Positions 17,887-20,283 of a stretch of 40,461 bases of DNA are shown in pieces (position 1 is the first letter of the stretch; the number at the start of each line of letters is the position of its first letter). The stretch comes from SAR202 cluster bacterium Io17-Chloro-G4 (GTDB taxonomy: Bacteria > Chloroflexota > Dehalococcoidia > Lucifugimonadales > UBA3495): the NCBI GenBank assembly GCA_002816455.1, contig MUCR01000062.1:1-40461 (forward strand), written 5' to 3'. Below the pieces are notes generated by a model. That model saw nothing but the letters and a program-made list of their open reading frames with translations, ran no database searches and was not told where the DNA came from. The translations under genes were made by a program, and so were the position numbers.

Positions 17887-17916
17887 TTGACGGTCAATCC
17901 GGAACCTCCATATAAT
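17887..17916 (+). promoter_or_regulatory. Promoter of the TPP decarboxylase operon
   Basis: -35 TTGACG (17887-17892), 18-base spacer, perfect -10 TATAAT (17911-17916). Start expected near 17923, giving a leader of about 70 bases to ATG 17991. The -35 overlaps the small palindrome TTGACGGTCAA. Confidence 0.65.
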
Positions 17917-17990: not shown

Positions 17991-18500
17991 ATGATGACTG
18001 TTTATGAATCAGTTTTGCACCCAACGTCGATCGTTGAAGAACTTAAGAAGAATAAATTCACTCATGTCGTCTGGCTTCCGGATAGCGAGACGAACTTCAT
18101 GTACCAGTTGCTGACCAATGAGCCGGATCTGGACTTGGTCCCGGTATGTAGGGAAGGTGAGACCATGGCCATTGCGGCCGGCTTGTGGGTCGGCGGCAAG
18201 AAACCGGTGGTCTTGATCCAGAACACGGGCATCTTCGAGTCCGGCGACTCCATCCGCGGTCTGGCGTTGGACGTCCATCAGCCGTTGGTCATGCTTATCG
18301 GTTACAGGGGTTGGAGCCGCCATGGATTGACCAACGACTCGGCTGCACGCTTCATAGAGCACATTCTCCATGCCTGGGGCATCACCTACTTTTTGATTGA
18401 AACCGACGATGACGCAGACCGGATAAGCTTGGCCGCCGAAGAGGCAGACCGTACCCAGAAACCAGTGGCGGTGCTGGTAGGCAGCGAATTCGGCGCCTAA
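17991..18500 (+). CDS. TPP-dependent decarboxylase, alpha (pyrimidine-binding) subunit, sulfopyruvate/phosphonopyruvate decarboxylase-like
   Basis: Resembles ComD, the alpha subunit of sulfopyruvate decarboxylase, and the N-terminal half of phosphonopyruvate decarboxylase. At 169 residues it is a stand-alone pyrimidine-binding domain. The catalytic Glu that activates thiamine diphosphate is expected in VPVCREGETMAIAAGLWVGGK, followed by the family stretch PVVLIQNTG, then the helix GDSIRGLALDVHQPLVMLIGYRG. The ribosome site GAAGAGG lies before two adjacent ATGs (17991, 17994); either may be used. The partner beta subunit follows after 38 bases. The complex would decarboxylate a 3-substituted pyruvate to an aldehyde; sulfopyruvate, phosphonopyruvate or another 2-oxo acid are all possible, since no other pathway genes are adjacent. 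Confidence 0.85.
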   Translation: MMTVYESVLHPTSIVEELKKNKFTHVVWLPDSETNFMYQLLTNEPDLDLVPVCREGETMAIAAGLWVGGKKPVVLIQNTGIFESGDSIRGLALDVHQPLVMLIGYRGWSRHGLTNDSAARFIEHILHAWGITYFLIETDDDADRISLAAEEADRTQKPVAVLVGSEFGA

Positions 18501-18538: not shown

Positions 18539-19129
18539 GTGATTAATAACACCGACGCAGTCAGGCTGCTCGATAGCAAGCGCAACGGGGCGGTAATCGT
18601 CCCCACTATGAATGCAGGTAACGTTCGCATGGGCCTGCCCAGCGTCAGCACCCACGACGAGTTGGATTTCCCCTTGTCGGGTTGCATGGGCAAAGCGTCA
18701 TCCGTGGGATTGGGGTTGGCTTTGGCCCATCCCGAGCGGAAGATTATGGTACTGGACGGTGACGGGAGCCTGCTAATGAACCTGGGCACGATGGTCACCG
18801 TATCCAACAAGGCGCCGGATAACCTCATCCACTTCCTGTTCGACAACGGTATTTATGCGGTCACCGGCGGCCAACCGGTACCCGGAGCGGGCCAGGCCGA
18901 TTGGAAACTGTTGGCCGAAGGAGCAGGCTATGCCGCCACGTTCTCCTTTGACAACTTGGAAGACTTGACCACGAGCATTGACCAAGTGTTGGCCGCCAAG
19001 GGCCCGGTATTTGTCCATTTGGTTGTAGAGCCTGAAATAGATAACACCCCCGTCCAGTTCCGTGCGCCAGCACGCCGGACCGTGCATACGGCCATCAAGA
19101 AATTGCCCGAAGCCATCGGCAGAGGATAA
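18539..19129 (+). CDS. TPP-dependent decarboxylase, beta (diphosphate-binding) subunit
   Basis: ComE-like C-terminal TPP domain as a separate chain of 196 residues. The cofactor motif is intact: GDGS at 74-77 and, after the usual interval, DNG with N103, which together hold Mg(II) and the diphosphate. The segment GCMGKASSVGLGLALAHPERKIMVLDGDGS is characteristic of phosphonopyruvate/sulfopyruvate decarboxylases. The start is GTG 18539, 38 bases after the alpha subunit; the ribosome site (AAGGA) is a little distant. A stable hairpin follows at 19180-19205. A degenerate paralog of this subunit is encoded at 19714. Confidence 0.88.
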   Translation: MINNTDAVRLLDSKRNGAVIVPTMNAGNVRMGLPSVSTHDELDFPLSGCMGKASSVGLGLALAHPERKIMVLDGDGSLLMNLGTMVTVSNKAPDNLIHFLFDNGIYAVTGGQPVPGAGQADWKLLAEGAGYAATFSFDNLEDLTTSIDQVLAAKGPVFVHLVVEPEIDNTPVQFRAPARRTVHTAIKKLPEAIGRG

Positions 19130-19179
19130 GGAACTGCGTTCGGCTAAACAACGGACTCTGGAGGATAAGGGGCAATTAG

Positions 19180-19205
19180 CGAGGCAACGCGAAAACGTTG
19201 CCTCG
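19180..19205 (+). terminator. Hairpin after the beta subunit, possible terminator
   Basis: Perfect 10-base arms (CGAGGCAACG and complement) around a 6-base loop CGAAAA, 50 bases after the stop at 19129. No run of T follows, so strength as an intrinsic terminator is doubtful. Confidence 0.45.
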
Positions 19206-19224
19206 ACTTGTTAAAGGCCCCGTT

Positions 19225-19321
19225 GTTGGCGCCTTAGGCGCCAACACGTCATTCCGGCGGAGGCCGGAATCCAGAATATGGTGCAACCGAATGATTTCTT
19301 GGACACCGGCCTTCGCCGGTG
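19225..19321. repeat. Cluster of three palindromes (REP-like)
   Basis: Three hairpins in 97 bases: GTTGGCGCC-TTA-complement (19225-19245), ATTCCGGC-GGAG-GCCGGAAT (19251-19270) and CACCGGC-CTTC-GCCGGTG (19304-19321). The second, within GTCATTCCGGC...GGAATCCAG, and the third, within GGACACCGGCCTTCGCCGGTG, are of a kind found repeatedly between genes in many bacteria. They fill most of the 316-base gap before the next gene. Confidence 0.6.
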
Positions 19322-19355
19322 AGTCGGATTGTCACCGATATCTCTTCGTTCGAAA

Positions 19356-19384
19356 TTGATAGATCGCCAAATGTTCGGGATAAT
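19356..19384 (+). promoter_or_regulatory. Promoter for the membrane protein and TPP paralog
   Basis: -35 TTGATA (19356-19361), 17-base spacer, -10 GATAAT (19379-19384). Start near 19391, about 55 bases before ATG 19446. It makes the second half of this region a separate transcription unit from the alpha/beta decarboxylase genes. Confidence 0.55.
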
Positions 19385-19445
19385 GGAACGAAGCTGCAAA
19401 TCCGATTTAGCATAATACTGGATACAACAATTAGTTAATCTTCTA

Positions 19446-19706
19446 ATGTTGAAATTATTAGCGAAGGGCCTTTTCGGCAGATTTCTCAGTTACGGCGCTT
19501 TCACGTTGGGCTTCTGGCTGCTGTTCCAAGGATTTTCCCGCCCAGAGGCGGTCTTGTGCGTCTTGGGCGGGGCAGCGGTGCTCTTGGGAATGTATCTTAT
19601 GGTGCAAGCACGAAAATCAGAACACAGCTTTAGCCCGCCCTTAAATAACGACAATAATGTCGATTCGCCCATCGCTGAGAAAATACCGGAAACAGGTGAA
19701 AAGTAA
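19446..19706 (+). CDS. Small two-helix membrane protein, unknown function
   Basis: An 86-residue protein with no recognised family. Two hydrophobic helices are visible, roughly residues 14-31 (YGAFTLGFWLLFQGF) and 37-56 (VLCVLGGAAVLLGMYLMV), followed by a charged, probably cytoplasmic tail ending IPETGEK. The N-terminus is basic (KLLAKGLFGR). There is no clear ribosome site at ATG 19446, but the promoter at 19356-19384 leads into it and the next gene starts seven bases after its stop, so the two are probably one operon. A link between this membrane protein and the TPP paralog is suggested only by position. Confidence 0.6.
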   Translation: MLKLLAKGLFGRFLSYGAFTLGFWLLFQGFSRPEAVLCVLGGAAVLLGMYLMVQARKSEHSFSPPLNNDNNVDSPIAEKIPETGEK

Positions 19707-19713
19707 CAAGTTG

Positions 19714-20283
19714 ATGGACTCGCTAGAAGCAACTAGGGCTGTAAATTATCACCGTAAAAACGCATTGGTGGTGTCGACGTCGTCGGCATTGCGAGACTGG
19801 GTGCAGGTGTCTGAGCGCAGGGATTTGGATGTCGACCTCATGGACTGTATGGACCGCGCGCCGGCGGTAGGTTTGGGTTTGGCTTTGGCACGGCCGGAAA
19901 GCAAAGTCCTGGTTTTAGATTGCGATGCCACTTTGCGCACCGACTTGGGCGGTCTCGCCACGGTGGGGGAGTCGGCGCCGGAGAACTTGGTCCACCTGTT
20001 ATTTGAGGACGCTTCTTTCCGGTCCACTGGTGGGACGCCCATCAAGGGGCTGGACACAATAGATTATCAAGCCATGGCCCAAGGCGCTGGCTACGTAAAA
20101 ACCTACCAGTTCGACAAGCTAGAAGAGTTGGTTCTGGGCTTGGAAGACGTGATGGCCCAGTCGGGACCTATCTTTGTGTTGATCAAGGTGGTGCGGGAAG
20201 AAGAGCTACCGCCAATGCCCCAACGCAGCATGGCGGAGGGTTGGGCTACCGTGCGCCAGACACTACTTCCAGACGTGAGTTAG
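19714..20283 (+). CDS. Degenerate paralog of the TPP decarboxylase beta subunit
   Basis: Aligns along its whole length with the beta subunit at 18539 (shared PAVGLGLALARPESKVLVLD, APENLVHLLF, STGGTP, AQGAGYVKTYQFDKLEEL, GPIFVLIKVV). The cofactor motif is broken: GDGS is replaced by CDAT (70-73), and the Asn of DNG by Asp (EDA, D99). Binding of Mg(II)-thiamine diphosphate in the usual way is therefore unlikely. The frame is otherwise intact, which argues for a retained non-catalytic role, such as a regulatory or structural partner, rather than random decay. ATG 19714 matches the beta subunit's start; the frame extends upstream to 19657 inside the membrane-protein gene. No second alpha subunit accompanies it. 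It is convergent with the DtxR gene, 25 bases away. Confidence 0.75.
   Translation: MDSLEATRAVNYHRKNALVVSTSSALRDWVQVSERRDLDVDLMDCMDRAPAVGLGLALARPESKVLVLDCDATLRTDLGGLATVGESAPENLVHLLFEDASFRSTGGTPIKGLDTIDYQAMAQGAGYVKTYQFDKLEELVLGLEDVMAQSGPIFVLIKVVREEELPPMPQRSMAEGWATVRQTLLPDVS

Follow-up and report, generated by a model that had tools for sequence, protein, structure and literature searches.

A conserved PP-domain paralog with an altered cofactor site encoded beside a two-subunit TPP decarboxylase in SAR202 bacteria

Introduction

Decarboxylases of the RhiEF and ComDE type have been described as two-subunit enzymes (PMC12141560; PMC12746152), and two-subunit TPP decarboxylases are thought to be similar to the ancestor of the TPP-dependent decarboxylases (review PMC12141560). 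The same architecture of one PYR and one PP subunit is seen in the α-imino acid decarboxylase AzcB/AzcC and the quinoxaline decarboxylase LumK/LumL (PMC12746152); these are active enzymes, and neither a pseudo-PP third subunit nor a membrane partner is reported for them in the texts consulted. A non-catalytic subunit kept beside an active α-β enzyme is known from a different enzyme family, in TSB-like, a tryptophan synthase β paralog of eudicots (PMC12727527). In the open-licence literature we found no description of a cofactor-less third PP subunit in two-subunit TPP decarboxylases, which is weak evidence of novelty, and no account of the SAR202 locus presented here.

This locus, with the gene order α-β-mem-β′, lies in a 40,461-nucleotide stretch of DNA, analysed as a whole and referred to below as the window, from a metagenome-assembled genome (71% complete) of SAR202 Chloroflexota, a lineage known for enzyme-paralog expansion. 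β′ shares with RhiF and ComE a full-length PP fold and a gene beside a PYR-domain α; unlike them, it lacks GxMG, GDG and DNG and is encoded by a third subunit gene, coupled to the gene for a two-transmembrane (two-TM) protein, mem. Our preferred reading, to which we assign a probability of roughly 0.55, is that β′ is an ancient non-catalytic pseudo-PP subunit in a membrane-associated module with mem, for which the decarboxylase is usual but not strictly needed.

Genes and Predicted Proteins of the Locus

All four genes are on the forward strand. The first encodes α (positions 17,991–18,500), the ComD/RhiE-like PYR-domain subunit of a two-subunit TPP decarboxylase, which matches TPP_enzyme_N (6.3e-07) and RhiE (9iz3_A, 1.7e-11) and scores 85.9 bits against TIGR03845, below its cutoff of 147.95. 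It is followed by β (18,539–19,129), a ComE/RhiF-like PP-domain subunit with GxMG, GDGS and DNG all intact (RhiF, 9iz3_B, 1.8e-20), by mem (19,446–19,706), a small protein with two transmembrane helices in the same orientation as β′, and by β′ itself (19,711–20,283). The sequence-only reading of this DNA had recognized both the two-helix membrane protein and the homology of β′ to β, and both hold: nearly all mem relatives have two hydrophobic segments and a G-F-W/Y-L-L motif, and β and β′ align with 39% identity over 187 residues (E = 3e-45) in frames that are both intact. Pfam TPP_enzyme_C matches β at 2.3e-18 and β′ at 7.4e-07. That reading placed the β′ gene at 19,714; the gene is there, but its orthologs have a GTG or ATG start one codon upstream, so the likely start is the TTG at 19,711 and not the ATG at 19,714. 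Its statement that only one α exists is correct for the window and not for the source genome, which holds three α-type genes, the other two in α-β pairs on contigs C42 and C35.

In these other pairs (G000:C42:37159-37710, L094, and G000:C35:14207-14701, L095) the GDG of β reads SEG (DSEGALLMNLG...DNE), and the equivalent cluster in genome G193 has a second, GDG-intact β added (L076).

The AlphaFold model of β′ (pLDDT 90.9) predicts a complete PP domain. The solved structure closest to this model is RhiF (9iz3_B), with a Z of 24.2 and an rmsd of 1.9 over 171 residues at 22% identity, and the AzcB/AzcC entry 9u8q gave a Z of 20.8. Family scores do not assign α-β to sulfopyruvate or phosphonopyruvate as its substrate, being under both cutoffs: TIGR03846 (sulfopyruvate decarboxylase β; cutoff 221.5) gave 123.2 for β and 66.0 for β′, and TIGR03297 (phosphonopyruvate decarboxylase; cutoff 312.5) gave 118.0 and 90.3, respectively. 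Nor is the substrate fixed by the genes sampled nearby (asnS, gatCA, a methyltransferase-like gene, gltX and a luciferase-like monooxygenase).

The Cofactor Site of β′

The motifs of β read GCMGKAS...GDGS...DNG, and those of β′ read DCMDRAP...CDAT...EDA. The replacement of GDGS by CDAT and of the Asn of DNG by Asp had been noticed from the single sequence; a third altered loop, in which GxMG has become DxMD, and an invariant Arg had been missed. Across 49 distinct β′ orthologs, Asp has replaced the first Gly of GxMG in 49/49, and Asp or Glu the last Gly in 49/49. None of the 49 has an intact GDG, the first Gly having become Cys, Ser or Thr and the last Ala, Ser or Thr, with the middle Asp kept in every case, and both the Asn to Asp change and a new Arg in place of Leu are found in all 49. 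GDGS and the Asn are each present in 44 of the 44 distinct β sequences taken from the same clusters. The Asn to Asp change alone is not diagnostic, since [ED]DG frequently stands in place of DNG among the GDG-intact solitary β-like proteins of the order. With all of these changes, β′ would be unable to bind TPP-Mg.

It could instead be argued that β′ is an alternative catalytic partner of α, either binding TPP in an altered way or using some other metal or ligand to carry out a distinct reaction. The Asp that binds metal in GDG is kept in 49/49, the Asn to Asp change leaves a possible metal ligand, and, as noted, [ED]DG also occurs in proteins with an intact GDG. However, the GxMG glycines are acidic and the GDG glycines gone throughout, changes that, going by the structure of TPP enzymes, should both clash with the diphosphate and repel it. 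β′ is also kept in genomes without α (see below), which argues against catalysis because the pyrimidine site and the catalytic Glu of TPP enzymes sit in the PYR subunit. We consider a catalytic β′ improbable.

Selection on β′

Pairwise Nei-Gojobori dN/dS for β′ is 0.04–0.15, similar to that of β (mostly 0.03–0.12, with one pair at 0.24), and is 0.11–0.32 for mem in the same set of comparisons (0.11–0.36 over all those made for mem); dS is saturated in several comparisons. No stop codon was found within any β′ match. Taken as one sequence in isolation, the lost cofactor motif of β′ could be that of a decaying duplicate retained by chance, but the same substitutions in 49/49 orthologs, the low dN/dS, the intact frames and what appears to be a single ancient origin all speak against this. 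Decay is refuted by the fixed motif changes and low dN/dS, which indicate a site rebuilt under selection, and we give it next to no weight. An enzyme fold, a conserved loss of cofactor residues and purifying selection are marks of a pseudoenzyme, and the proposal that β′ is a retained one is supported, its lack of catalytic activity being predicted.

Distribution and Origin

We found β′ in 53 of the 250 genomes of the order, nearly all of the genomes compared being metagenome assemblies; its profile score (at least 249 bits) sets it cleanly apart from the other PP subunits (at most 199.5). It is present in 46 of 50 genomes of the window's family, the four without it each being at most 85% complete, and the others are in families f10, f15 and f4. 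A survey for the order α-β-mem-β′, as the sequence-only reading had suggested, found it recurring across four SAR202 families (f1, f10, f15 and f4) despite differing neighbours, which are gatCA, asnS, DtxR and an ABC transporter in the window's family and gltX or a luciferase-like monooxygenase in others. In lineage G122, mem was not found. Outside the order, the best matches elsewhere in the phylum all have intact motifs, and no β′ was found in viral contigs.

A tree built from 76 PP subunits has a branch (87/99; recovered in 85% of bootstrap trees) with all β′ on the same side of it. This fits a single ancient origin of β′ across the four families, though long branches leave the exact root unsure.

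A PP-like protein of genome G011 (L098, 4594–5037), downstream of an α-β pair, is extremely diverged (DCENDT, QSNES). Its divergence kept it from being placed (branch 6.6), and it may be either a further eroded β′ or an independent case.

Other PP Paralogs in the Order

Orphan PP subunits are common in the order. The extra and solitary SAR202 β paralogs with an intact GDG (for example L073, L074, L081–L083, L091 and L072) resemble β′ as an expansion of PP subunits within the same order, some beside an α and many without one; they differ from it in that their GDG/xDG is mostly intact, no two-TM gene was detected with them and they lie outside the β′ side of the tree. An α followed by two or three β paralogs is seen at L081, L082 and L083 (f30), L091 (f33), L074 (f25) and L073 (f13). 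In the middle β paralog of f30, D[VA][VL]GKG and TDG replace GxMG and GDG, a partly similar and apparently independent departure. Solitary β-like PP proteins (L072, L075, L077–L080, L090, L092, L093 and L099–L103) mostly have an intact GDG with [ED]DG, and no α gene was detectable within the few kb examined around them.

Expression of the Four Genes

A sigma70-like promoter (TTGACG-N18-TATAAT; 17,887–17,916, forward strand) lies upstream of α, matching 11/12 consensus positions, and none of 300 shuffles was as good. An 11/12 score (TTGAC[GCT]-17/18-TATAAT) at this place is common to 17 of the 20 loci tested, from several families, with 0–2 of 300 shuffles scoring as high. The membrane gene had been credited with a promoter of its own, a claim that the analysis does not support: the best match in the β-mem gap (19,356–19,384) scores 10/12, a level that 18 of 300 shuffles also reach, and relatives do not have it; no comparable promoter between β and mem is conserved among them.

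Many relatives in the window's family have a GC-rich hairpin followed by T between β and mem, which possibly attenuates transcription. In the window this is CGAGGCAACG-CGAAAA-CGTTGCCTCG (19,180–19,205, forward strand), with a weak T tract; outgroup families have a short β-mem gap without such a hairpin. The long gap of the window is due in part to a dispersed palindromic repeat, a copy of which lies at 19,250–19,274 (no strand assigned). This repeat, CATTCCGGCGNAGGCCGGAATCCAG, has 31 copies in the source genome at three or fewer mismatches and none in a reversed-pattern control.

The mem and β′ genes overlap or abut in most relatives, with ATGA or a longer overlap in many, and are probably translationally coupled. 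Given a conserved promoter at α, none at mem and the overlap of mem with β′, the simplest arrangement is one four-gene transcription unit, and we infer a single transcript for all of them.

A methyltransferase-like gene (~520–670 aa) with weak, under-cutoff matches to N6_Mtase/UPF0020 lies upstream of the α promoter or mem at L040, L044, L046, L038 and L063 and is absent from the window.

Retention of β′ After Loss of α-β

Cognate α and β′ occur together in 43 genomes of the window's family, so that 43 of the 46 with β′ have both; α without β′ was seen in none, β′ without α in three and neither in four (Fisher p = 1.5e-4). The three exceptions, G159 (L038), G150 (L044) and G171 (L063), belong to one genus. 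Their contigs run continuously from the upstream methyltransferase-like gene into mem-β′, with α and β deleted; a C-terminal remnant of β persists at L044, and the α promoter is retained at all three loci, in stretches picked by eye ahead of scoring. No cognate α was found elsewhere in these assemblies, which are 87–91% complete, and the best other α are paralogs at 56–62% identity in two of them and 25% in G171. L038 groups with L044 as its sister (100/99), and a single clade of all three is disfavoured (p-AU 0.038; gatA+gatC+β′), which favours two losses of α-β, probably as independent events, although the same topology test with β′ alone (p-AU 0.25) does not settle their number.

The β′ of these genomes differs at 0–1 of ~75 family-conserved positions and has a dN/dS of 0.04–0.12 in the pairs whose dS could be measured; for the two sisters dN is 0.107, with dS saturated. 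The β remnant of L044 has a dN of 0.28–0.35 against the intact β of sibling genomes, well beyond the 0.01–0.12 usually seen for intact β pairs. That mem and an unrelaxed β′ are kept after deletion of α-β points to a selected function of β′ that is independent of the cognate α-β, and a role limited to this α-β pair is not supported. In the 43 genomes with both, β′ may still be a non-catalytic partner of α.

This last idea can be extended to the whole group, with β′ as a dedicated non-catalytic partner of its cognate α, mem as its tether, and the loci without α-β as late relics or users of other α. β′ would then replace β in some complexes (α2-β-β′ or α-β′) and exert half-site or allosteric control. 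Every family genome with cognate α carries β′ (43/43), a single conserved promoter stands ahead of all four genes, the operon of the outgroup families is tight with no terminator-like β-mem hairpin, and there is precedent in TSB-like, a non-catalytic β paralog that hijacks TSA (PMC12727527); α-activation has been shown for TSB-like and may be a role of β′, which, unlike TSB-like, outlasts its cognate α in some genomes. The near-perfect co-occurrence with α suggests that the main role of β′ is still tied to the decarboxylase, and the paralogous α (56–62%) in two of the α-β-less genomes could be usable by β′. On the other side, β′ is unrelaxed after what appear to be two independent losses of α-β, and G171 has no α above 25% identity. 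Extra constraint on α from having two partners was also rejected: α is more conserved than β, and the gap between them is the same with and without β′ in the cluster. We regard a dedicated partnership with α as possible, though on the doubtful side.

A different use of the fold, which we think rather unlikely, is that the PP domain became a membrane-associated sensor of a ligand or metal, with an acidic pocket (invariant Asp, Asp/Glu, Asp, Arg, Asp) and a two-TM partner, independent of its parental enzyme and in the same operon in most family members.

Proposed Role of β′

In our preferred reading, a pseudo-PP subunit acting with mem, the TPP/Mg pocket of an ancestral PP subunit would have been rebuilt and then fixed, and β′ would act with the two-TM protein as a membrane-associated module. 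The adjacency and overlap of their genes are the basis for proposing a mem-β′ complex at the membrane. The pair would normally be expressed from the α-β promoter, alongside the decarboxylase, with a selected function that does not strictly depend on it. The linkage of β′ to α-β suggests that they usually work together, and its retention after their loss suggests a role of its own too, most plausibly with mem. Where both occur, β′ would also modulate or tether α-β, perhaps by taking the place of β on α, much as the plant TSB-like docks on TSA.

If confirmed, this would show a cofactor-binding subunit that has been repurposed and has outlived its own enzyme, and β′ would offer a testable handle on SAR202.
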